From Paraconexibacter algicola (lineage in GTDB: Bacteria > Actinomycetota > Thermoleophilia > Solirubrobacterales > Solirubrobacteraceae): a stretch of 64,000 bases of DNA. The notes below the pieces were generated by a model. It saw only the letters and a program-made list of their open reading frames with translations. It did not search any database and was not told the DNA's origin. A program made the translations under genes and the position numbers. Positions within the stretch are counted from its first letter, which is position 1. Each line of letters starts with the position of its first letter. Of the stretch, positions 20,492-30,580 are shown piece by piece. The stretch spans positions 682,001 to 746,000 of the forward strand of contig NZ_PYYB01000001.1 in the NCBI RefSeq assembly GCF_003044185.1, given 5' to 3'.

Positions 20492-20497
20492 AGCCTA
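20492..20497 (-). promoter_or_regulatory. TAGGCT -10 box built on a stop codon
   Basis: On the minus strand the TAG is the stop of the FAD oxidase (20495-20497); the box ends seven bases before the ATG at 20484. Confidence 0.5.
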
Positions 20498-22078
20498 CGC
20501 CTCAGCGGGCAGCAGCACCCCGGGGTTCATCACGCCCGCCGGGTCGATCGCGGCCTTCGCGCCGCGCAGCGCGGCGGCGAACACGTCCGGTCGCTGCGTC
20601 TCGTAGTAGGGGCGGTGGTCGCGTCCGACCGCGTGGTGGTGGGTGATCGTGCCGCCGGCGGCGACGATCGCGCGGCTGGCCGCGTCCTTCATCGCCTGCC
20701 ACTGGGCGACCTCGTCGCCGCGCCGGGCGGGCGCGATGACGGTGTAGTACGGCGCGGGGCCGTCGGGGTACACGTGGGTGAAGCGGCAGGTCACGCGGCA
20801 CGGCTCGCCGAGCGCGGCGCGCGTGGCGCCCACCACCGTCTCGTGGAACGCGGGGAACCGGTCCCAGGTGATCGCCGTCTCGAACGTGTCCGCGAGCACC
20901 CCGACCTGCATGAGCGTGTCGCGCAGGTACGGCATCGCCAGGAACGCGTCGCGCCAGGCGGAGACGGCGCCGCCGGCGCGCGGCTCGTCCGGTGAGCCGC
21001 CGTGTTCCCGGCAGATCGCCAGCCCGCGGTCGAGCCGGTCGGCGACGTCGTGGTCGGTCGACTCGAACCCGAGGACGAGCAGCGCGGTCGTCCCGTCACC
21101 GGCCCCGGTCTGCTGCGCCTCCAGCGGGTCGACGAGGCGGCAGTTGGCGGGCAGCAGCCCGCTCTGGGACAGGGCGCGCACGGCGTCCGCCCCGGCGAGG
21201 AAGGTCGGGAACCGGACCGCACGCGAGGCCCGGTGCTCGGGCCGCGGCTGCACGCGCACCCAGGCCTCGGTGATCACGCCGAGCGTGCCCTCGCTGCCGA
21301 GCAGCAGCCGGTCGGGGGACGGTCCGGCCCCGGAGCCGGGCAGGCGCCGCGACGCCCACGCCCCGATCGGGGTGATCGCCCGGACGCTCTCGACGAGGTC
21401 GTCGACGTGCGTCCAGACCGTCGCGAAGTGCCCGCCGGCGCGCGTGGCGATCCAGCCGCCGAGGGTCGAGAGCTCGAACGACTGGGGGAAGAACCGCATC
21501 GTCATCCCGTGCGCCCGCAGCTGCTCCTCGAGCCGCGGGCCGCTCGCCCCGGCGCCGATGCGCGCCGCGCGCGAGACGTCGTCGAGCTCGTGCAGGGCGT
21601 CGAGCGCCCCGAGGTCGACGGAGACGGCGCCCTCGAACCGCGGTCCGAGCTCGCGCGGCTCGACGCCGCCGCAGACGCTGGTGCCGCCGCCGTAGGGGAT
21701 GACCGCGACGCGGGCGTCCGCCGCCCACGCCAGGACGGCCTCGAGCTCGTGCTCGTCGCGGGGACGGGCGACCGCGTCGACGGGATGCTCGATGACGCCG
21801 CGGAAGGCGCGGACGGTGTCGAGGTAGGACTTCCCCTGGGCGTGGCGGATCCGCTGCTCGCCGTCGGTGGTGAGGATCCCCCGCAGCGCCGCGGGGACCG
21901 GGACGCGCGGCGCGGGGAGGGTCGCGAGGACGTCGGCGAGCCGGGCGGGCTCCTCCACCTCGGCGCTGCCGAAGCCGAGCTGCTGCACGATCGCCGGGGC
22001 GGCGGCCCGCAGCGCCTCGACGGGCTGGTGCCCGTCGTCGTAGCCCCAGCCCCACCAGCTGCGTGTCCGCGCGCTCAT
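20495..22078 (-). CDS. FAD-binding oxidase/synthase, alkyldihydroxyacetonephosphate-synthase-like
   Basis: The product is 527 residues. It opens with WWGWGYDD and has RIRHAQGKSYLDTVRAF, both typical of the AGPS-like branch. The PCMH-type FAD domain includes VIPYGGGTSVCGG (pyrophosphate loop) and STLGGWIATRAGGHFA; the C-terminal cap carries TCRFTHVYPDGPAPYY and HHHAVGRDHRPYY, with the His cluster used at the active site. Eukaryotic AGPS makes ether lipids; actinobacterial relatives act on unknown hydroxy acids or ether lipids. It is cytosolic or peripheral. A TAGCGT box six bases before the ATG indicates a leaderless transcript divergent from the zinc-ribbon gene. Confidence 0.9.
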   Translation of the reverse strand: MSARTRSWWGWGYDDGHQPVEALRAAAPAIVQQLGFGSAEVEEPARLADVLATLPAPRVPVPAALRGILTTDGEQRIRHAQGKSYLDTVRAFRGVIEHPVDAVARPRDEHELEAVLAWAADARVAVIPYGGGTSVCGGVEPRELGPRFEGAVSVDLGALDALHELDDVSRAARIGAGASGPRLEEQLRAHGMTMRFFPQSFELSTLGGWIATRAGGHFATVWTHVDDLVESVRAITPIGAWASRRLPGSGAGPSPDRLLLGSEGTLGVITEAWVRVQPRPEHRASRAVRFPTFLAGADAVRALSQSGLLPANCRLVDPLEAQQTGAGDGTTALLVLGFESTDHDVADRLDRGLAICREHGGSPDEPRAGGAVSAWRDAFLAMPYLRDTLMQVGVLADTFETAITWDRFPAFHETVVGATRAALGEPCRVTCRFTHVYPDGPAPYYTVIAPARRGDEVAQWQAMKDAASRAIVAAGGTITHHHAVGRDHRPYYETQRPDVFAAALRGAKAAIDPAGVMNPGVLLPAEA

Positions 22079-22084
22079 GCGCTG

Positions 22085-22090
22085 ACGCTA
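22085..22090 (-). promoter_or_regulatory. TAGCGT -10 box of the FAD oxidase gene
   Basis: It ends six bases before the ATG at 22078 on the minus strand; the divergent box lies 17 bases away. Confidence 0.5.
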
Positions 22091-22107
22091 TCCGGACGGG
22101 CCGCGCG

Positions 22108-22113
22108 TAGCCT
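22108..22113 (+). promoter_or_regulatory. TAGCCT -10 box of the zinc-ribbon gene
   Basis: It ends seven bases before the ATG at 22121. With the opposing box at 22085-22090 it forms a compact divergent promoter. Confidence 0.5.
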
Positions 22114-22120
22114 GTGGAGC

Positions 22121-22468
22121 ATGGCGGTGTGCCCGAACTGCAAGGAGCCGGTCAGTCAGTTCGCGGCGGGGTGCGCGGTGTGCGGCACCGACCTCGAGGC
22201 GCACCGTCGCGCCCGGGCGCAGCGCCGCGGGGTGCGGCTGCCGGGCCTGCCGCGCCTGGTCGAGGCGGACCTCGTCGTCGGGGTCGTGGCGCTGGCGATC
22301 CTCGGGCAGCCGCTGATCGGGATCGTCCTGGCGCTGCTGGCGCTCTACCGGCACCCGGACCTGATCTTCCCCGGCCCGCGGCGCACCGCGCTGATCGCGC
22401 TGTGCGGGATCGGGGTCGTGCTGCTGCTCGCCACCGGCGGCGTGGGGATCCTCTTCTACGGCGGCTGA
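22121..22468 (+). CDS. zinc-ribbon small membrane protein
   Basis: The product is 115 residues. The N-terminus is a zinc ribbon with CPNC and CAVC pairs (residues 4-21), then a basic stretch (HRRARAQRRG) and two or three membrane spans (DLVVGVVALAILGQ, IGIVLALLALYRH, ALIALCGIGVVLLLATGGVG). Membrane proteins with a cytosolic N-terminal zinc ribbon are common in this lineage, with no fixed function. The stop is immediately followed by the stop of the converging gene, with no bases between. Confidence 0.75.
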   Translation: MAVCPNCKEPVSQFAAGCAVCGTDLEAHRRARAQRRGVRLPGLPRLVEADLVVGVVALAILGQPLIGIVLALLALYRHPDLIFPGPRRTALIALCGIGVVLLLATGGVGILFYGG

Positions 22469-22969
22469 TCAGGCGCGGCCGGCGGGTGCGCGCAGCGGCA
22501 TCCGCCCCTGGCGGAACGCGGCGAGCTGCCCGGCGGTGCGGCGGCGCACGAGCAGCCGCAGGACCGGCGAGTGGCCGAGCACCTTGCCGAGCGGTCCCAT
22601 CGCCTGCGCGGCCCAGGCGTGCAGGTCGAAGCTGTCGCGGTGATCGGCGATCAGGCCGTCGCGGAACACGTACCGCGCACGGATCTCGTTGACCACCGGG
22701 CGGCCCTGGAAGTCGTAGCGGGCGATCCAGCGGGCGTGCCCGGTCTGCTCGTCGGCGTCGCGCTCGGGGACCTCGACCTCGACCCCGGAGGCGCGGGCGG
22801 TGAGCATCCGCCACATGTCCTGGGCGGCACCGTCGCGCAGCTCGCCGAACGCGGGGTCCTCGAACACGGCGTCCGGGGTGTAGCAGGCGGCCATCGCCTC
22901 GCCGTCCCCGGCGGCGAGCGCCGCGTACAGCCGGTCGATGACGGCGACGTGCTCCTGCGCGCTGGACAT
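22469..22969 (-). CDS. SnoaL/NTF2-like protein
   Basis: The product is 166 residues. The cone-shaped NTF2 fold is suggested by IDRLYAALAAGDGEAMAACYTPDAVFEDP, split here as the helix and the FEDP turn, then WRMLTARASG, ARYDFQGRPVVNEIRARYVFRDGLIADHRDSFD. That ending, with VFRDGLI..H.D.FD, is typical of ketosteroid-isomerase-like or SnoaL-like enzymes and of non-enzymatic members. An extra C-terminal helical tail of about 40 residues is basic. A TAGGAT box six bases before the ATG includes the upstream stop codon. The substrate, if any, is unknown. Confidence 0.82.
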   Translation of the reverse strand: MSSAQEHVAVIDRLYAALAAGDGEAMAACYTPDAVFEDPAFGELRDGAAQDMWRMLTARASGVEVEVPERDADEQTGHARWIARYDFQGRPVVNEIRARYVFRDGLIADHRDSFDLHAWAAQAMGPLGKVLGHSPVLRLLVRRRTAGQLAAFRQGRMPLRAPAGRA

Positions 22970-22975
22970 GGCGCG

Positions 22976-22981
22976 ATCCTA
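22976..22981 (-). promoter_or_regulatory. TAGGAT -10 box built on a stop codon
   Basis: On the minus strand the TAG (22979-22981) is the stop of the gene upstream; the box ends six bases before the ATG at 22969. Confidence 0.5.
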
Positions 22982-23482
22982 TGCGGCGCCGGGCAGCATG
23001 CGCGAGGGCAACGGCGCGCCGTGTCGCGCCGCCTCCTCGCGCAGCCCGTCCCACGGGACGAGCGGCACGTCGAGGTCCGCGGCGATCGCCTCGACGAGGC
23101 GGCGGCGCTCGGGCTCGTTGCGCGGCGGGTGCGCGAGCGCCTGGATCCGCGCGTGCTGCGCGCGCAGGCCCTCGCGGTGCGCCTCGATGCGCCCCCAGGC
23201 CGTGACGACGCCCTCGACCCAGTGCCACTCGCCGTACCAGCGCTGCGTGCCGGGCGCGTGGTAGGCGTAGACGCCGCACTGGCAGTCCGGGTGCGGCGAC
23301 TCGTGCGGCGCGTCGAGCCAGCCGACGCCTCGGGTGAGCGTGCGGTTGGCGGGGTAGCAGACCGCGTGCATGTCGCGGCCGTCCCAGGTGCACGGGATGT
23401 ACGGGGAGTGCAGCCGGTCCTTGACGATTCGCCAGGCGCGGAAGCCGACGACCGGCTCGATCAGGTCCGGGGCCGCGCTCAC
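22979..23482 (-). CDS. cysteine-containing conserved-looking protein, unknown function
   Basis: The product is 167 residues, from a GTG that overlaps the preceding small ORF's TGA as GTGA. The N-terminal half is aromatic and Cys-rich: VGFRAWRI, PCTWDGRDMHAVCYP, and PDCQCGVYAYH, followed by WHWVEGVVTAWGRIEAH. I have the impression of a family widespread in actinobacteria, but cannot name it. The Cys-x-Cys and spaced cysteines could bind a metal. The second half is helical and basic. It is probably cytosolic. Confidence 0.65.
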   Translation of the reverse strand: MSAAPDLIEPVVGFRAWRIVKDRLHSPYIPCTWDGRDMHAVCYPANRTLTRGVGWLDAPHESPHPDCQCGVYAYHAPGTQRWYGEWHWVEGVVTAWGRIEAHREGLRAQHARIQALAHPPRNEPERRRLVEAIAADLDVPLVPWDGLREEAARHGAPLPSRMLPGAA

Positions 23483-23622
23483 GTGCGGACGGGCTCCCGC
23501 TCGGGAGCCGGGGTGGGCGCGGGCCGCGGCGGGGCGGCGGGCTCGCGCGCGGGCGCCGGCGCCCGGTCGGGGACGACGACGGGCTCGACGACGATCGTGC
23601 GGGACGGACCGGTGAGCGACAC
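23479..23622 (-). CDS. possible 47-residue proline-rich small protein
   Basis: A GTG-initiated frame of 47 residues (VSLTGPSRTIVVEPVVVPD, then alternating Ala-Pro-Arg-Glu) ends in TGA overlapping the next start as GTGA. GAGGGGAG lies directly against the GTG, too close for an ideal ribosome binding site. The composition is Pro/Ala/Arg, which random high-GC DNA can also produce, so it may be only a leader for the next gene or no gene at all. Confidence 0.3.
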   Translation of the reverse strand: MSLTGPSRTIVVEPVVVPDRAPAPAREPAAPPRPAPTPAPEREPVRT

Positions 23623-23667
23623 CTCCCCTCGAGGGTAGCGCCCGGGCCGACCCCGCTCCCGCCAAGC

Positions 23668-24813
23668 TCAGGCGGTGGCGCCCGAGCCGAGCAGCACCGT
23701 GCACTGCGACGACCACGCACCGCCGTTGCCGTGGACGAGCGAGACGTCGCGGCCGACCTCGCGGACCTGGCGGACGCCCTCGACGAGCAGCGGCAACCCG
23801 TTCATCCCGGGGTGCTGGAAGCTCAGGCCGCCGCCGGTGGTGTTCACGGGCAGCGCGCCGCCGGGGGCGATCGCGCCGCTCGCCACGAACGGGCCGCCCT
23901 CGCCCTTGGGGCAGAACCCGAGGTCCTCGAGGAACACGATCGGGGTGATCGTGAACGCGTCGTAGAGCTGGGCGACCTGCACGTCGGCGGCGGTCAGGCC
24001 GGCCTCCGCGTACGCGCGGGCACCGGACTCCACCGCGGCGGTCGTGGTCAGCGAGGGCATCGAGGAGACGTGCCGGTGGGAGAGCGCCTCGCCGATCCCG
24101 AGGACGAGCACCTCGGGGACCGCCGGTCCGAGCAGCTCCCGCGCGCGCTCGCGGGCGACGACGACGATCGCGCCACCGCCGTCGGTGACGAGGCAGCAGT
24201 CGCGCACCCCGAGCGGGTCGCAGACGCGGGGCGCCGCCAGCACGTCGGCGATCTCCAGCGGCGTGGTCGACCAGGCGGCGGGCGTGCCCTCCCAGGCGCG
24301 CGCCCAGGCGCGGGCGCTCACCGCGACCGCGGCGAGCTGCTCGGGCGTGGTCCCGTACTCGTGCATGTGCCGGGAGGCGGCGAGCGCGTACGCGGCGATC
24401 GGCAGCGGCGGCCGGTAGGGCGCCTCGTAGGGGTCGACCTCCTGGACGGAGGCGGCGGCGCGGCCGACGAGCCGCTGCGTGGAGCCGTAGGCGATGAGCG
24501 CCACCTCGATCTGCCCGGCCGCGATGAGCGCGCGGGCGTGGTTGAGGTGCGCGATCGGGGACGAGCCGCCGACCTGCGTGGAGTCGCTGACCCGGGGGCG
24601 GATGCCGAGCTCCTCCGCGAGCGTGACGCTCGCCCACGGCAGCTGCGTCGACGCGGCGAACAGGCCGTCGACGTCCTGCACCCCCAGGCCGCACTGCCCC
24701 AGCGCGCGGCGCGCCGCCTGCGCGGCGAGCCCCGCGGGCGTGGTGCCCTCGGGCACCGCCCCCATGTCCGAGAGCGCGGCGCCCGCGATCGCGACCTGCG
24801 CGCGCAGGCTCAC
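23668..24813 (-). CDS. thiolase-fold protein lacking the nucleophilic Cys (Ltp2-like)
   Basis: The product is 381 residues, from GTG overlapping the upstream stop as GTGA. The SCP2-type thiolase fold is clear: VAIAGAALSDMG, VDGLFAAST, VALIAYGSTQR, VCDPLGVRDCCLVTDGGGA, VAQLYDAFTITP and GGGLSFQHPGMNG. At the place of the usual reactive cysteine the sequence is STQVGGSSPIAH, with no Cys, and the C-terminal Cys-x-Gly motif is also absent (HGNGGAWSS). The closest known analogues are Ltp2-type aldolases of steroid side-chain breakdown, which pair with a DUF35 protein, as here. It is probably not a working thiolase; retro-aldol activity is inference. Confidence 0.85.
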   Translation of the reverse strand: MSLRAQVAIAGAALSDMGAVPEGTTPAGLAAQAARRALGQCGLGVQDVDGLFAASTQLPWASVTLAEELGIRPRVSDSTQVGGSSPIAHLNHARALIAAGQIEVALIAYGSTQRLVGRAAASVQEVDPYEAPYRPPLPIAAYALAASRHMHEYGTTPEQLAAVAVSARAWARAWEGTPAAWSTTPLEIADVLAAPRVCDPLGVRDCCLVTDGGGAIVVVARERARELLGPAVPEVLVLGIGEALSHRHVSSMPSLTTTAAVESGARAYAEAGLTAADVQVAQLYDAFTITPIVFLEDLGFCPKGEGGPFVASGAIAPGGALPVNTTGGGLSFQHPGMNGLPLLVEGVRQVREVGRDVSLVHGNGGAWSSQCTVLLGSGATA

Positions 24814-25196
24814 GACGCACCGGCGGGGTCGTCGCCGTCGGCGACCGGCCGGAAGACCGGAACGTCGCCCTCCCACTCGACCTGCACGCGGGCGCCGATC
24901 CGGACGGCCTCCGGCGCGACGCCGACGACGCGGCTCATCATCCGGAAGCCCTCGTCGAGGTCGACGAGCGAGACGTCGTAGGGCTCGCCGTCGCGCGGGC
25001 GCACGGTGCAGGTCGCGTGGACGCGGCCGCGCCCGGTGCTGATCGCCCACGCGCCCGCTCCGACGCGCGGGCGGAACACGGCGGTTCCGTCGGGGGCCAC
25101 CTGGTAGGCGAGGCGGCCCTCGCGTGCGTGCGCCAGCCAGGTCGCCGAGGGGGCGGGATCGAGCTCCATGACCGGGACTCTGACGGACGCGACCAT
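24810..25196 (-). CDS. DUF35 OB-fold protein without zinc-ribbon cysteines
   Basis: The product is 128 residues. The order is a short helix (ATWLAHAREGRLAYQ), a degenerate rubredoxin-like region and an OB fold (GRVHATCTVRPRDGEPYDVSLVDLDEG, then VVGVAPEAVRIGARVQVEW). DUF35 proteins are partners of thiolase-fold enzymes and acyl-CoA dehydrogenases/hydratases (for example ChsH2 with Ltp2). The two Cys pairs that usually hold zinc are missing: the region reads YQVAPDGTAVFRPRVG. It overlaps the thiolase-fold gene by GTGA and is probably its obligate partner. The start is 15 bases from the divergent Nudix start. Confidence 0.85.
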   Translation of the reverse strand: MVASVRVPVMELDPAPSATWLAHAREGRLAYQVAPDGTAVFRPRVGAGAWAISTGRGRVHATCTVRPRDGEPYDVSLVDLDEGFRMMSRVVGVAPEAVRIGARVQVEWEGDVPVFRPVADGDDPAGAS

Positions 25197-25197
25197 C

Positions 25198-25203
25198 TAG
25201 GGT
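25198..25203 (+). promoter_or_regulatory. TAGGGT -10 box of the Nudix gene
   Basis: It ends seven bases before the ATG at 25211 and begins two bases from the start codon of the divergent DUF35 gene. Confidence 0.5.
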
Positions 25204-25210
25204 TTGGCCC

Positions 25211-25879
25211 ATGGCACCGTCTCCCGGCATCATCGCGCGCGGACCCTGGGTGCCGTCGGCCGTCGAGGCCCGCTGGCTCGACGACCACTACGAGCCGCCC
25301 GCCGCGGCGACCGCCGCCGCCGACGCGGCGATCACCGCGCTGGCCGAGCGCGGCTCCCCCAGCCACGACGGTCTCGGCGCCCGCTTCGTGTCGCACCGCG
25401 AGGTCGACGGGCGGCTCGTGATCGAGATGCAGCCGGCCCGCTGGGGCCTGCGGCTCGTCGACGGGGACGCGTCGCAGTCGATGGCCGCGCTCTGCGTCAC
25501 GCGCGCGCACGACGGGCGCTGGCTCGCCGGCCGCCGCGCGGCGTGGCTGTCCACCTGGGCGGGCCGCTGGGCGCTCGGCGCCGGCGGTGCCGTCGACGTG
25601 GGCGAGTCGCCCGCCGAGACGCTCACGCGCGAGCTGATGGAGGAGTGGCAGCTGACCGCCGATCGCGTCCAGGTCGACGCGCTCGTGCGCCTGCCCCACC
25701 AGATGATCATGGTCGTCGGCCAGGCCTGGCTGCCCGAGGGCGCCGACGAGCAGCTCGTCATGGACTCCGAGCACGACGCCTACGCGTGGTGGCCGGCGTC
25801 GGTCGACGACTGGCCGCCGGAGGCCGACGAGCCCCTGCGCCGCATGGCGGCGCTGCTGGCGTCCGCCGGGCCCGCGTGA
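25211..25879 (+). CDS. Nudix hydrolase
   Basis: The product is 222 residues. The Nudix box is GAVDVGESPAETLTRELMEE followed by WQL (about residues 127-149), matching GX5EX7REUXEE; the usual Gly after the second Glu pair is replaced by Gln. An N-terminal region of about 85 residues precedes the box, longer than in minimal Nudix enzymes and possibly a second, degenerate half (WGLRLVDGDASQSMAALCV). Nudix enzymes cleave nucleoside diphosphates linked to another moiety. The substrate is unknown. The following gene starts one base after the stop. Confidence 0.88.
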   Translation: MAPSPGIIARGPWVPSAVEARWLDDHYEPPAAATAAADAAITALAERGSPSHDGLGARFVSHREVDGRLVIEMQPARWGLRLVDGDASQSMAALCVTRAHDGRWLAGRRAAWLSTWAGRWALGAGGAVDVGESPAETLTRELMEEWQLTADRVQVDALVRLPHQMIMVVGQAWLPEGADEQLVMDSEHDAYAWWPASVDDWPPEADEPLRRMAALLASAGPA

Positions 25880-25880
25880 C

Positions 25881-26168
25881 GTGCTGACCCGTCCGCGCCT
25901 GAAGTGGGCGTCGTTCACCCACTCGACCGTCTACCTCGTGCTGCTGGTCGCCTGGGCGATCCCGGGACTGGCCGGCGTGGAGTTCGTCTTCGGCCTCGCG
26001 CACGGCCTCGGCTGGTTCGCGATGTGCGCCCTCGCGTTCGAGGGGGTGCGGCGCCGGCTGATCGACCTGCGGCTCGCCGTCGCCATCTCGGTGCTGGGCG
26101 CGATCGGGCCGTTCATCGGCTCGGCGGAGTTCATCCGCCAGGACCGCGCGCGGCGACCTGTGACCTGA
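25881..26168 (+). CDS. DUF3817-like small membrane protein
   Basis: The product is 95 residues, GTG start one base after the Nudix stop, so probably one operon. Three membrane spans (STVYLVLLVAWAIPGL, GLAHGLGWFAMCALAF, LAVAISVLGAIGPFIGS) and the phrases GLAHGLGW and GPFIGSAEFI resemble DUF3817 membrane proteins, which normally have a H-G-W motif in the second helix. The role is unknown. Confidence 0.7.
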   Translation: MLTRPRLKWASFTHSTVYLVLLVAWAIPGLAGVEFVFGLAHGLGWFAMCALAFEGVRRRLIDLRLAVAISVLGAIGPFIGSAEFIRQDRARRPVT

Positions 26169-26229
26169 CCCACATGTGAACGTCCTGTCTTGGTGCAGGA
26201 CGCCGTCCGACCGGGGCGCACCAGCGCGC

Positions 26230-26235
26230 TAGAGT
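26230..26235 (+). promoter_or_regulatory. TAGAGT -10 box of the 2-oxoglutarate dehydrogenase gene
   Basis: It ends seven bases before the ATG at 26243, consistent with a leaderless mRNA. A small inverted repeat (GTCCTG-N8-CAGGAC, about 26183-26202) lies upstream and could be an operator or chance. Confidence 0.5.
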
Positions 26236-26242
26236 CAGTCGC

Positions 26243-29200
26243 ATGGCGGTCGAGTCGACGATTCAGGTGGTCGCGCCCGGTGCGGGCGAGTCCGTGACCG
26301 AGGGCGAGATCCTCGAATGGCACGTGCAGGAGGGGGACGTCGTCTCCGAGGGTGACACCCTCGTCGAGATCTCGACCGACAAGGTCGACGTCGAGGTCCC
26401 CTCCCCCGCCTCCGGGAAGGTCGTGAAGCTGCACGTCGCCGAGGGCGAGACGATCACGGTCGGCCAGCTGCTCGCCGAGCTGTCCGCCGGGGACGGCGAC
26501 GCGGCGGGCGGCGGCGATCCCGCCGACGAGCTCGCGACCGCGGGCGTCCCCGACGAGGGCGACGGCTCGCAGTCCGCCGCCGACACCGAGGCCCAGACCG
26601 CCAGCGCGGGCCAGGTCATCGACATCGTCACCCCCGGGGCGGGCGAGTCCGTCACCGAGGGCGACATCCTCGAGTGGCACGTGCAGGTCGGCGACACCGT
26701 CGAGGAGGACCAGACGATCGTCGAGATCTCGACCGACAAGGTCGACGTCGAGCTGCCCGCCCCGGCCGCGGGCACGATCACCGAGCTGCTCGCGCAGGAG
26801 GGCGACACGGTCACCGTCGGCCAGGTCATCGCCCGCATGGAGACCGGTGCGGCGTCGTCGGCGTCCGCCCAGCCCGCCGCCCCCGCGGCCTCCGGCAACG
26901 GCGCGTCCGCCTCCGGCAACGGGAACGGCAACGGCGCCGCGCCCGCGATCGCCGACGGCACGAAGATCTCCCCCGTCGCCAAGCGCGTCGCGGCCGCCGA
27001 GGGCGTCGACGTCGCCGGCCTGACCGGCACCGGCCCGGGCGGCCGCATCACGAAGGCCGACGTGCTCGCCGGCCCGTCGGCGGGCAACGGCGCCGCGTCG
27101 GGCGGCGCGACCGCGACCGGCACGTCGAAGGCGATCAAGGGCGGCGCCGCGATGCTCGCCCGCTACATGGACGAGTCCCGCGCGATCCCGACCGCGACCT
27201 CGTTCCGCACGATCACCGTCACCCAGATGGACGGCCGGCGCAAGCAGCTGAAGGCCGCCGGGCAGAAGGTCTCCTTCACCCATCTGATCGCCTACGCGAT
27301 CGCGCTCGCCGCCACGCAGGACATGCCGGTGATGGCGCACCACTTCGAGGAGGTCGACGGCAAGCCGCACCGCGTCGACGACGGCGCCGTGAACCTCGGC
27401 ATCGCCGTCGACGTCGAGAAGAAGGACGGCAGCCGCACCCTGATGGTGCCGGTGATCCGCGACGCGGGCCGGCTGACCTTCCAGGGCTTCCTCGACGCGT
27501 TCGGCGACCTGATCTCCCGGGCGCGCGACAACAAGCTGACCGCCGACGACCTCGCGGGCGCCAACATCTCGCTGACGAACCCGGGCGGCATCGGCACGGT
27601 CGCGTCCGTGCCGCGGCTGATGGTCGGCCAGGGCACGATCATCGCGACCGGCTCGATCGCCTACCCGGTCGGCCTGGGCAACATCGGGGCCGCGATCGGC
27701 GCGGAGAAGGTCATGTCGATGACCTCGACCTACGACCACCGGATCATCCAGGGCGCCGAGTCCGGGCAGTTCCTCAAGACCGTGGAGGAGTACCTCCAGG
27801 GCGAGCACGGCTTCTACGAGAAGGTCTTCGCCGACCTCGGCGCGACCGCCGGGCCGGCGATCCCGCTGCCCGAGCCGACCGCCGCGCTCGCGCCGGCCGC
27901 CGCGGCCGCGCCGTCCGCCATCGCCGCCGCCCCGTCGGAGGAGCTGCTGCAGGCCGTCCAGGCCGCGACCTCGCTGCTGAAGGCGCACCGCACGCACGGG
28001 CACCTCGCGGCGACGCTCGACCCGCTGGGCTCCGCGCCCGAGGGCGACCCCGCGCTCGACCCGGAGCCGCTGGGCCTCACCCCGGAGCTGCTCGCGCAGA
28101 TCCCGGTGAAGATCCTGCGCACGAACGTGCCGGGGGCGACGCTCGCCGAGGCGCTGCCGCACCTGCGCCGCACGTACTGCGGCACGATCGCCTACGAGGT
28201 CGAGCACATCGCCTCGCACCGCCAGCGCACGTGGCTGCGCGAGAAGATCGAGTCGGGCGCGTTCCGCACGCCGCTGACCGGTGACGAGCAGAAGGCGCTG
28301 CTCAAGCGCCTCGTCGAGGTCGACGCGTTCGAGCGGTTCATGCACAAGGCGTACCTCGGTCAGAAGCAGTTCTCGATCGAGGGCCTCGACATGACGGTCC
28401 CGATGATCGACGAGATCATCCAGCTGTCGGCGTCGCACGGGGCCCGCGAGGTCGTCGTCGGCATGGCGCACCGTGGCCGCCTCAACGTGCTCGCGCACAA
28501 CCTCGGCCGCCCCTACGAGACGATCTTCGCGGAGTTCGAGGGCGCCTCGACGCTCGAGGCGATCACGACGATCCCGCAGGGCGGCACCGGCGACGTGAAG
28601 TACCACCACGGCGCCCAGGGCAGCTACCAGCTGCCCGACGGGAACTCGATCCTCGTGAACCTCGAGAGCAACCCGTCGCACCTCGAGTTCGTCCACCCGG
28701 TCGTGCTCGGCGCCACGCGCGCCGCGCAGACGCAGCGTCAGGGCCCGCACGCGCAGCGTGACGTCGCCGAGGCCGTGCCGATCGTCCTGCACGGCGACGC
28801 CGCGTTCCCGGGCCAGGGCGTCGTGGCGGAGTCCCTGAACCTGCAGGCGCTCGACGGCTACCAGGTCGGCGGCACGATCCACATCGTCCAGAACAACCAG
28901 GTCGGCTTCACCACCGACCCGGAGGACTCGCGCTCCACGCGCTGGGCGTCGGACCTCGCGAAGGGCTTCGACGTCCCGATCATCCACGTCAACGCCGACG
29001 ACGTCGCCGCGTGCATCGACGCGGTGCGGCTCGCGTTCGCGTTCCGCCACGAGTTCGGGCACGACGTGCTGATCGACCTGATCGGCTACCGCCGCTTCGG
29101 CCACAACGAGGCCGACGAGCCCGCGTACACGCAGCCCGAGATGACCGCGAAGATCAAGAAGCACCCGCGCGTCACCGAGCTGTTCTCCAAGGAGCTGATC

Positions 29201-30580
29201 GGCTCCGGCCTGTTCACGCAGGAGGAGTACGACGCGGGCGTGCAGCGCATCTGGGACGAGCTGACCGCGCTGCACCAGAACCTCAAGGCGCAGATCGCCG
29301 CCTCCGAGGAGGCCGGCACGGTCGAGCAGAAGACCGGCGAGTACCAGCTCGACCGCTCGCCCTCCCCGGAGGTCAAGACGGCCGTGAGCGCCGACCGGCT
29401 GCAGGTCCTCAACGAGGAGCTGCTCACGACGCCGGACGGGTTCACGGTCCACCCGAAGCTCGTCAAGCAGCTCGAGCGCAAGCGCAAGGCGCTGGGCGAC
29501 GAGGGCGGCATCGACTGGGCGCACGCCGAGGCGCTGGCGTTCGCGTCGCTGCTGACCGAGGGCATCCCGATCCGCCTCACCGGCCAGGACGTGGAGCGCG
29601 GCACGTTCTCGCAGCGCCACCTCGTGCTGCACGACGCGAAGACCGGCCAGACCACGTCGCCGATCCAGAACCTGCCGGGCGCGCTCGCCCCGATCGAGCT
29701 GCACAACTCGCCGCTGAGCGAGACCGCCTGCCTGGGCTTCGAGTACGGCTACTCGCAGGAGGCGCCGGAGACGCTCGTGCTGTGGGAGGGCCAGTTCGGC
29801 GACTTCGCCAACGGCGCCCAGGTGATCATCGACCAGTTCATCGTGTCCGGCCTGGCGAAGTGGGGCCAGTCCTCGCGCCTGACGCTGCTGCTGCCGCACG
29901 GCTACGAGGGCTCCGGCCCGGAGCACTCCTCCGCGCGCCTGGAGCGGTTCCTGCAGCTCGCGGCGGAGGGCAACATCCGCGTGGCGAACCTGACGACCCC
30001 GGCGCAGTACTTCCACCTGCTGCGCCGCCAGGCCCGGATCGCCAAGCAGCGCCCGCTGGTCATCATGACCCCGAAGTCGCTGCTGCGCCTGCCGCAGGCC
30101 ACGAACCGCATCCAGCACCTCGCGGACACGCAGTTCTTCCCGGTGCTCGGCGAGCCGCGCGTGCCGCACGAGAAGGTCACGCGCCTCGTGCTGTGCACCG
30201 GCAAGGTCTACTACGACCTCGTCGGTCACGAGTCCCGCAAGGACAACGAGGCGGTCGCGGTCGGCCGGATCGAGCTGCTCTACCCGTTCCCGGAGGGCCA
30301 GGTCCGCGAGCTGATCGACTCCTACCCGAACCTGCAGGAGGTCCTGTGGGTGCAGGAGGAGCCGCGCAACATGGGCGCCCGCGCGCACATGTTCCCGCGC
30401 CTCATGCAGATCCTGCCCGAGCACCTGTCGCTCGGGTACGTCGGCCGGCCGGAGCGCGCGAGCCCGGGCGAGGGCTACCCGGCCGCGCACAACACCGAGC
30501 AGACGCGGATCATCCGCACCGCGCTCGACACGTCGGTTCCGGTCTCGCTGTACCCGAAGAAGACGCCGGGCGAGCGGTAG
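26243..30580 (+). CDS. kgd: fused 2-oxoglutarate dehydrogenase E2-E1 (two lipoyl domains)
   Basis: The product is 1445 residues in one chain. Lipoyl domain 1 has Lys47 and lipoyl domain 2 Lys166, each in EISTDKVDVE. A Gly/Asn/Ala linker and a peripheral-subunit-binding domain (about 240-275, KISPVAKRVAAAEGVDVAG) follow. The E2 acyltransferase domain is about 300-530, with His499 in TYDHRIIQG (DHRxxQG, not DHRxxDG, as in mycobacterial Kgd/OdhA). The ThDP-dependent E1 runs from about 590 to the end (GMAHRGRLNVLAH, HHGAQGSYQLPDG, VLHGDAAFPGQG, IGYRRFGHNEADEP). It makes succinyl-CoA from 2-oxoglutarate with an external E3. Unlike mycobacterial Kgd, it carries its own lipoyl domains. Confidence 0.95.
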   Translation: MAVESTIQVVAPGAGESVTEGEILEWHVQEGDVVSEGDTLVEISTDKVDVEVPSPASGKVVKLHVAEGETITVGQLLAELSAGDGDAAGGGDPADELATAGVPDEGDGSQSAADTEAQTASAGQVIDIVTPGAGESVTEGDILEWHVQVGDTVEEDQTIVEISTDKVDVELPAPAAGTITELLAQEGDTVTVGQVIARMETGAASSASAQPAAPAASGNGASASGNGNGNGAAPAIADGTKISPVAKRVAAAEGVDVAGLTGTGPGGRITKADVLAGPSAGNGAASGGATATGTSKAIKGGAAMLARYMDESRAIPTATSFRTITVTQMDGRRKQLKAAGQKVSFTHLIAYAIALAATQDMPVMAHHFEEVDGKPHRVDDGAVNLGIAVDVEKKDGSRTLMVPVIRDAGRLTFQGFLDAFGDLISRARDNKLTADDLAGANISLTNPGGIGTVASVPRLMVGQGTIIATGSIAYPVGLGNIGAAIGAEKVMSMTSTYDHRIIQGAESGQFLKTVEEYLQGEHGFYEKVFADLGATAGPAIPLPEPTAALAPAAAAAPSAIAAAPSEELLQAVQAATSLLKAHRTHGHLAATLDPLGSAPEGDPALDPEPLGLTPELLAQIPVKILRTNVPGATLAEALPHLRRTYCGTIAYEVEHIASHRQRTWLREKIESGAFRTPLTGDEQKALLKRLVEVDAFERFMHKAYLGQKQFSIEGLDMTVPMIDEIIQLSASHGAREVVVGMAHRGRLNVLAHNLGRPYETIFAEFEGASTLEAITTIPQGGTGDVKYHHGAQGSYQLPDGNSILVNLESNPSHLEFVHPVVLGATRAAQTQRQGPHAQRDVAEAVPIVLHGDAAFPGQGVVAESLNLQALDGYQVGGTIHIVQNNQVGFTTDPEDSRSTRWASDLAKGFDVPIIHVNADDVAACIDAVRLAFAFRHEFGHDVLIDLIGYRRFGHNEADEPAYTQPEMTAKIKKHPRVTELFSKELIGSGLFTQEEYDAGVQRIWDELTALHQNLKAQIAASEEAGTVEQKTGEYQLDRSPSPEVKTAVSADRLQVLNEELLTTPDGFTVHPKLVKQLERKRKALGDEGGIDWAHAEALAFASLLTEGIPIRLTGQDVERGTFSQRHLVLHDAKTGQTTSPIQNLPGALAPIELHNSPLSETACLGFEYGYSQEAPETLVLWEGQFGDFANGAQVIIDQFIVSGLAKWGQSSRLTLLLPHGYEGSGPEHSSARLERFLQLAAEGNIRVANLTTPAQYFHLLRRQARIAKQRPLVIMTPKSLLRLPQATNRIQHLADTQFFPVLGEPRVPHEKVTRLVLCTGKVYYDLVGHESRKDNEAVAVGRIELLYPFPEGQVRELIDSYPNLQEVLWVQEEPRNMGARAHMFPRLMQILPEHLSLGYVGRPERASPGEGYPAAHNTEQTRIIRTALDTSVPVSLYPKKTPGER
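26361..26395 (+). repeat. 35-base direct repeat, lipoyl domain 1
   Basis: Identical to 26718-26752; it encodes the lipoyl-lysine loop (Lys47) of the first lipoyl domain. The identity at base level suggests a fairly recent duplication or gene conversion. Confidence 0.85.
26718..26752 (+). repeat. 35-base direct repeat, lipoyl domain 2
   Basis: Second copy of 26361-26395, encoding the loop with Lys166. Confidence 0.85.

Follow-up and report, generated by a model that had tools for sequence, protein, structure and literature searches.

A cysteine-less thiolase-fold protein and its zinc-less DUF35 partner in Paraconexibacter algicola, a predicted retro-aldolase pair

The closest described systems are thiolase-fold retro-aldolases with a DUF35 partner. 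Ltp2-ChsH2(DUF35) (PDB entry 6ok1) is a steroid C3 side-chain aldolase and Sal-Shy(DUF35) (9myr) a bile-acid C5 side-chain aldolase, while IpfD and IpfE belong to ibuprofen degradation. In that pathway the dihydrodiol of ibuprofenyl-CoA (CoA, coenzyme A) is cut by a retro-aldolase into propionyl-CoA and 4-isobutylcatechol, and a transposon insertion in ipfD gave an ibuprofen-negative mutant; the introduction of the same paper names the step a retro-aldolase and its discussion speaks of an 'ipfDE-encoded thiolase' releasing propionyl-CoA (PMC9195938). The present analysis concerns two overlapping genes of Paraconexibacter algicola (high-GC genome of 4.74 Mb) encoding a thiolase-fold protein and a DUF35 protein. 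They are located in the window, i.e. the whole analysed stretch of 64,000 nucleotides (contig NZ_PYYB01000001.1, positions 682,001 to 746,000), within which all coordinates are counted. Reading of the open reading frames (ORFs) placed both genes where the initial annotation, made from the sequence, had put them, with the DUF35 gene upstream and the thiolase-fold gene downstream.

24810..25196, minus strand: DUF35 protein gene, 128 aa, ATG..TGA (25196-24810)
23668..24813, minus strand: Cys-less thiolase-fold gene, 381 aa, predicted retro-aldolase, GTG..TGA (24813-23668)
24810..24813, minus strand: GTGA start-stop overlap coupling both genes, read from the sequence

The pair is best explained as a real and conserved feature, representing a misnamed retro-aldolase family with a recurrently zinc-less partner, which on present evidence is neither unique nor steroidal. 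Based on the sequence comparisons, we predict with a probability of about two in three that it acts as a retro-aldolase on a beta-hydroxyacyl-CoA that is not steroidal, Tyr284 serving as base and His334 as acid. The residue states, their conservation, the co-occurrence of the partners, the phylogeny and the loss of zinc ligands are established by the results below.

Active site and family of the thiolase-fold protein

An alignment of 111 distinct relatives and five solved chains was used for the residue map, with the residue numbering of Ltp2 and Sal taken from PMC12329534. From S78 to residue 86 the protein reads STQVGGSSP, and Gly83 was aligned to the nucleophilic Cys of 7yvy and 7pxp. The HDxF position is occupied by Y284-D285-A286-F287 (YDAF), where the second SCP2-type Cys (HDCF) is replaced by Ala, and the C-terminal CxG region of thiolases reads VHGNGG. 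The absence of both Cys motifs reported in the initial annotation was thereby confirmed, and the alignment it had proposed as a check, including Ltp2, placed no Cys at the active site. The first of the two thiolase histidines is replaced by Tyr284, which corresponds to Tyr294 of Ltp2, Tyr302 of Sal and the His of HDxF in thiolases. The second is kept as His334, the GHP histidine of thiolases, aligned to Tyr344 of Ltp2 and Gln352 of Sal. Ala286 stands at the position of Ltp2 His296 and Sal Cys304.

After removal of 14 rows (thiolase paralogues, one truncated row and the distant members L026-L034, L091b and L092b), a core family of 97 rows was obtained, window included. Gly82, Gly83, Tyr284, Asp285, Ala286 and Phe287 were each present in 97/97 of these and His334 in 96/96, with one row gapped. 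Two peptide patterns, of which one contains YD[AS]F, had yielded the loci L035-L114 as the best 80 of 592, and the conservation of YDAF in the core rows is therefore partly selected; Gly-Gly and His334 were absent from the patterns. Twenty-five further members were found with a full-length hidden Markov model (HMM) and no motif selection. They showed GG in 25/25, YD[AS]F in 24/24 and His334 in 24/24, one row being truncated, and at position 286 Ala was found in 16 and Ser in eight of the 24. The AlphaFold2 model of the protein had a predicted local distance difference test (pLDDT) value of 86.6.

The thiolase-fold protein passed the cut-off of NCBIfam NF004811/PRK06158, named 'acetyl-CoA acetyltransferase' (487.9 vs 421 bits). 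This name is probably a database misnomer, since the nucleophilic Cys is missing in all 97 core members. The nearest PDB match was 4u4e (7.2e-89), followed by Ltp2 (6ok1_A, 1.6e-36) and Sal (9myr_A, 1.4e-35). The uncharacterised 4u4e protein of Sphaerobacter thermophilus is 45-49% identical to the window protein and has Gly-Gly, YDxF and HPG in common with it, but carries Ser where the window protein has Ala. PRK06158 was found in Pseudomonadota, Actinomycetota and Bacillota. With the window's genome counted throughout, relatives of the thiolase-fold protein (P0001, E<=1e-60) were present in 20/299 genomes sampled from the class, PRK06158 matches above cut-off in 21/396 genomes sampled from the phylum, matches at E<=1e-60 in 92/396 of the latter, and a DUF35 match (E<=1e-5) in 12/41 near genomes.

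In a tree of 64 rows, the 60 Cys-less rows (window protein, 4u4e, Ltp2, Sal, IpfD and others) were split from four Cys-bearing thiolases with a support of 100/98. The pair thus does not fall among ordinary thiolases, and the initial view of it as aldolase-like rather than a thiolase is upheld. Together with Ltp2, Sal and IpfD it belongs to the broad class of thiolase-fold retro-aldolases, sharing the Cys-less site, the YDxF tyrosine and the DUF35 partner gene. Within this class the window protein was located in a 45-row clade with 4u4e (98/88), outside the clade that unites Ltp2, IpfD and three further rows (97/89) and outside the Sal branch, although the finer branching order is unsure because IpfD and Sal are long branches. 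The steroid side-chain part of the resemblance that had been suggested was not supported, as the protein clusters with neither enzyme and has neither the Ltp2 set (YDHF and the acid Tyr344) nor that of Sal (YDCY and Gln352).

Two thiolase paralogues of the same genome (L127, L128) have an intact nucleophilic Cys and HDCF (the two examined of three, the third being a weak match), and a second DUF35 protein of this genome has two CxxC. The loss of Cys and of the ligands is therefore specific to the window locus. In nine near relatives (L002-L010, thiolase identity 57-73%) the DUF35 protein is likewise CxxC-less, and two CxxC are found in that of L011 and L012 (thiolase identity 55%). Chance or sequencing error is ruled out by these nine relatives and by the intact paralogues.

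The DUF35 partner and its zinc ligands

The DUF35 protein consists of an N-terminal helix, a zinc-less hairpin (residues 29-52) and an oligonucleotide/oligosaccharide-binding (OB) fold. The latter was matched by PF01796 (57.7 bits vs a cut-off of 27.1, 1.1e-15) and contains the only Cys of the protein (C63). No CxxC and no four-Cys zinc ribbon were found, and zf-ChsH2/PF12172, which in a genome-wide search matched only the other DUF35 locus, gave no match. The coupling of both genes by GTGA (24813-24810) and the loss of all ribbon cysteines had been correctly described in the initial annotation. The best PDB match was ChsH2(DUF35) (6ok1_B, 3.2e-8). The AlphaFold2 model had a pLDDT of 89.1, with block means of 95, 94 and 86 across residues 21-50 in the region of the zinc-less hairpin, and gave Z values of 14.3 to 6ok1_D and 14.0 to 9myr_B, the DUF35 proteins of both described aldolases.

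A same-strand DUF35 gene was found at <=1.5 kb in 109/111 places. Zinc binding was classified by the CxxC count, and other ligands were counted on alignment columns. No CxxC was present in 54 of the 109 pairs, two in 55 and one in 0. A zinc-less partner, believed at first to be unusual even among these aldolases, is thus common, and IpfE is likewise CxxC-less. Neither Cys nor His was left in 29/54 of the CxxC-less hairpins; none had more than two Cys and His together, and single Cys remnants occurred in some. The CxxC-bearing hairpins examined (n=45) had four or five Cys each.

A CxxC-less clade of 44 rows (98/99) contains the window together with Burkholderiales and Rhodospirillales. The 14 thermoleophilian rows within it group as a single clade (100/99), with the second knuckle deleted in 12/14 (exceptions L007 and L019). 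A single clade of all 53 CxxC-less core rows was rejected (p-AU, the approximately unbiased test, 1.85e-5). On the thiolase tree (99 rows) the CxxC label needs 4 changes, of which 4 are forced by starred branches, and the 5% and 95% marks of the count over 200 bootstrap trees were likewise 4. The DUF35 tree without the ribbon columns (109 columns, poorly resolved) needs 6 changes, 3 of them forced by starred branches. The changes are read as losses, because a regain of four Cys is unlikely. L110 and L111 resemble the second CxxC-less group in their DUF35 sequences, and since exchange of partners may inflate the count on the thiolase tree, we state that the zinc ligands would have been lost at least three times. 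In the thinned 64-row tree L088 fell outside the main CxxC-less clade (92/91, not starred).

Among the DUF35 neighbours of the HMM-found phylum set, 0/16 were CxxC-less; within the sampled actinobacteria the zinc-less form was therefore observed in the window's class only. Nine actinobacterial PRK06158-like genes (L150-L152, L154, L157-L161) have no DUF35 within 1.5 kb as sought by HMM, and seven of them occur in one large-genome genus (G332, G409, G428, G458, G477, G487, G630). A distant paralogue (L027:1486-3074) has its CxxC-less DUF35 gene downstream of the thiolase-fold gene and stands apart from the other CxxC-less rows. A search for thiolase residues covarying with zinc-ligand loss gave weak, chemically small differences only (best: Ala at position 108), and no compensating residue is claimed. 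In the titles and abstract openings of the open-access literature searched, no treatment of zinc-less DUF35 proteins or of PRK06158 was found.

The genes for IpfD and IpfE were read from plasmid pIBU218 (NZ_CP059320), where the order is dioxygenase alpha, dioxygenase beta, IpfD, IpfE and ligase. Their identity follows from this order and from the published ipfE primer, whose sequence lies within the DUF35 gene. At the nucleophile site IpfD lacks Cys, and it carries YDAF; PRK06158 is its closest NCBIfam family, with a score of 287 bits that stays below the cut-off. IpfE is matched by PF01796 only. A pair with loss of Cys, YDAF and a CxxC-less DUF35 protein thus belongs to a CoA-dependent C-C cleavage pathway. 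The IpfE hairpin (L163:13228-13626), which stood outside the recount of 54 hairpins, keeps His27, His37, Cys42 and His47, and a non-canonical metal site is possible there. The same plasmid carries at L163:938-3387 a second, Ltp2-type aldolase (YDHF, GEAY) with a two-CxxC DUF35 protein, an enoyl-CoA hydratase and, after these, a CoA-transferase gene; a plasmid for drug degradation here bears a module of the steroid type.

Gene neighbourhood of the pair

The following genes were identified around the pair; FAD stands for flavin adenine dinucleotide and DHAP for dihydroxyacetone phosphate.

20495..22078, minus strand: FAD-linked oxidase, alkyl-DHAP-synthase-like (PF01565/PF02913; 2uuu 7e-58)
22469-22969: SnoaL gene, between the thiolase-fold gene and the FAD gene
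22979-23482, minus strand: gene for a 167-aa protein unmatched in Pfam and NCBIfam, also lying between the thiolase-fold and FAD genes
26243-30580, plus strand: fused E2-E1 2-oxoglutarate dehydrogenase/decarboxylase (KGD), with two tandem lipoyl-like repeats at its start, seen by eye

The genes named at 20495-30580 comprise NUDIX, DUF3817, the fused 2-oxoglutarate dehydrogenase, SnoaL, the FAD-linked oxidase and one gene without a known family. A steroid context, as given by the ChsH1/ChsH2 hydratase, was absent among them, and in a genome search the HsaC-type model TIGR03213 reached 50.8 bits vs a cut-off of 366, a weak steroid test with a single model; this also speaks against the steroid likeness first proposed.

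In six near relatives (L035, L115-L119) the FAD gene directly follows the thiolase-fold gene, and the two small genes that intervene in the window were not found by tblastn between the pair and the FAD gene. The arrangement in near relatives is NUDIX, DUF35, thiolase and FAD oxidase, with DUF3817 and KGD adjoining. This suggests that the pair and the FAD gene form one operon in near relatives, perhaps with a link to lipids, and the oxidase is a possible, weakly indicated pathway partner. The synteny of the FAD gene was dropped as a guide to function, only 6/15 loci compared having this gene (L125 ends inside the thiolase gene).

In the flanks (<=10 kb) of 80 named loci, acyl-CoA dehydrogenase was found at 41, enoyl-CoA hydratase at 37, TctC receptor at 33, CoA-transferase III at 20 and adenosine monophosphate (AMP) ligase at 14; neighbour clusters were named from one member each, and among the unnamed ones communities 6 and 7 were found at 27 and 22 loci. 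For the CxxC-less loci, 132 of 200 neighbour ORFs were used (same strand, <=700 aa, 28 of 30 loci). They included TctC (24), enoyl-CoA hydratase (10), MaoC (7), AMP-binding proteins (6), short-chain dehydrogenases (6), CoA-transferase III (5) and acyl-CoA dehydrogenase (4). 3-Hydroxyacyl-CoA dehydrogenase was not among the 25 commonest of the 73 Pfam families in these ORFs; the six short-chain dehydrogenases could perform the same step. On the Achromobacter plasmid pA82 two MaoC genes, TctC, CaiB, a CxxC-less DUF35 and the thiolase-like gene stand in a row, which reads as activation, hydration and cleavage.

Proposed reaction, alternatives and comparison with known systems

The pair would form an obligate heteromer of a Cys-less catalytic subunit and a DUF35 OB-fold partner flanking the cleft of the active site, in the manner of Ltp2-ChsH2(DUF35) and Sal-Shy(DUF35). 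The Calpha-Cbeta bond of a beta-hydroxyacyl-CoA would be cut (or formed, in reverse) by a retro-aldol reaction, without thiolysis, to give an aldehyde or ketone and acetyl- or propionyl-CoA. By analogy with Sal Y302F and the Ltp2 tyrosine, Tyr284 is expected to deprotonate the beta-hydroxyl. His334 would protonate the enolate. This role is assigned to it because Ala occupies the third motif position, at which Ltp2 has His and Sal the acid Cys304. The hairpin of the DUF35 protein is predicted to fold metal-free and to form a wall of the cleft. The complex, the reaction, the residue roles and the absence of metal are thus what we infer from these comparisons. The substrate is probably a branched or aromatic acyl-CoA, made in the proteobacterial relatives by activation, dehydrogenation and hydration.

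This reading is based on the loss of Cys together with the strict conservation of Gly82-83, Tyr284 and His334, on a position bracketed by Ltp2, Sal and IpfD and apart from the thiolases, on the likeness to IpfD-IpfE, on the DUF35 gene linked in 109/111 places, on a confident DUF35 model close to the DUF35 proteins of both described aldolases, and on neighbours that are often acyl-CoA dehydrogenases, enoyl-CoA hydratases or MaoC proteins, CoA-transferases and ligases. Several points weigh against it. Fold similarity does not discriminate, with Z values of 46.6 to Ltp2 and 45.9 to the true thiolase 6esq. In IpfD position 334 is occupied by Tyr, which leaves the Tyr-His pair without functional precedent. 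The model places His334 tentatively, as region 327-336 around it has a pLDDT <50 and this loop is the least certain part of the model. The exchange of Cys304 to Ala in the YDCY motif of Sal left no detectable activity (PMC12329534), so that Ala286 demands another acid. The genes named beside the window pair include neither a hydratase nor an acyl-CoA dehydrogenase. A DUF35 gene within 1.5 kb is missing for 9/25 HMM-found members (DUF35 sought by HMM), and this partner is therefore not universal in the wider family. The literature search found no measured activity for any core PRK06158 member, and the two papers retrieved for '4u4e' were unrelated.

As the canonical functional residues are lost in both subunits, the proteins could also be a catalytically dead CoA- or acyl-CoA-binding or scaffold pair of the 'lipid-transfer' type, channelling substrate to other enzymes. 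According to the proposal in the report on SSO2064, acyl-CoA is carried non-covalently by DUF35, and PhlA is described there as a member of the thiolase superfamily that is inactive and belongs to a complex with DUF35 (PMC2954200). However, Tyr284 and His334 are invariant in the covering rows of two samples, unlike in a dead site, Ltp2 and Sal have lost the Cys as well and are active, and genetic data show a requirement for IpfD; we consider a dead pair unlikely. Another non-covalent CoA chemistry, such as decarboxylation of malonyl-type thioesters or a Claisen-type condensation, could make use of His334 as the retained GHP histidine, and TbSLP shows slow malonyl-CoA decarboxylation (0.005 s-1; PMC12329534). 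The hydratases encoded beside the genes of relatives fit a beta-hydroxyacyl substrate instead, and such a chemistry appears quite unlikely.

The same machinery could work in the aldol (synthetic) direction, e.g. supplying the alkyl-DHAP-synthase-like enzyme, encoded directly after the pair in the six near relatives, with a long-chain product or with the corresponding aldehyde or alcohol. This explanation is distinctly improbable: the gene-order link is confined to near relatives, and the FAD enzyme may equally be a 2-hydroxyacid dehydrogenase, D-lactate dehydrogenase being the next kind of PDB match. The family name of NCBI and fold Z values tied with those of DUF35-type thiolases would agree with an ordinary thiolase using another Cys as nucleophile. 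No Cys stands at the nucleophile, HDCF or CxG positions, Gly-Gly occupies 82-83 in all core members and thiolases fall outside the Cys-less rows, which makes this very improbable. The preferred reading therefore remains the retro-aldolase.

If this is true, a large gene group annotated as acetyl-CoA acetyltransferases would encode aldolases that depend on CoA. These would be of use in C-C bond chemistry and would help to predict the bacterial breakdown of branched or aromatic acids, and a third way to build a retro-aldol site from the thiolase fold would be added. We give an even chance to the wider proposal that PRK06158 forms a third class among the thiolase-fold retro-aldolases, non-steroidal and with a Tyr-His pair instead of Tyr-Tyr or Tyr-Cys, in which the DUF35 zinc is dispensable and was lost repeatedly, perhaps replaced by hairpin packing that retunes the cleft. 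A CxxC-less DUF35 protein runs against a statement in PMC2954200, according to which every DUF35 homologue keeps both domains (zinc ribbon and OB). In PMC6996347 zinc is noted at equivalent positions in every DUF35 protein with a structure known at that time, and a metal-free structure would deviate from this. The parts new to a specialist may be the catalytic set and the recurrent loss of zinc ligands.

Compared with the known systems, SCP2- and DUF35-type thiolases (6esq, 7yvy, 7pxp and the two genome paralogues) share the fold and the GHP histidine with the window protein, and several of them have a DUF35 partner. 7yvy and 7pxp even share the Ala of HDAF, but all five have the nucleophilic Cys and the His of HDxF where the window protein has Tyr. 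Ltp2-ChsH2(DUF35) resembles the window pair in fold, Cys replaced by Gly, YDxF tyrosine and DUF35 partner; it differs by YDHF and Tyr344 (YDAF and His334 in the window) and by a four-Cys zinc site in a DUF35 domain that is part of the ChsH2 hydratase subunit, whereas the window DUF35 is a separate, CxxC-less gene. Sal-Shy(DUF35) likewise has the fold, Gly at the nucleophile site, the catalytic Tyr and a DUF35 partner, but relies on YDCY with the essential Cys304 and on Gln352 in place of Ala286 and His334, and its Cys3His1 zinc, which shapes the substrate cleft, has no counterpart in the CxxC-less window partner. IpfD-IpfE is alike in the missing nucleophilic Cys, YDAF and a separate small CxxC-less DUF35 gene; IpfD is 37% identical to the window protein, has Tyr for His334 and EG for GG at 82-83, and stands with Ltp2 in the tree. 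The catalytic sets are thus Tyr-Ala-His in the window protein, Tyr-His-Tyr in Ltp2 and Tyr-Cys-Gln in Sal.

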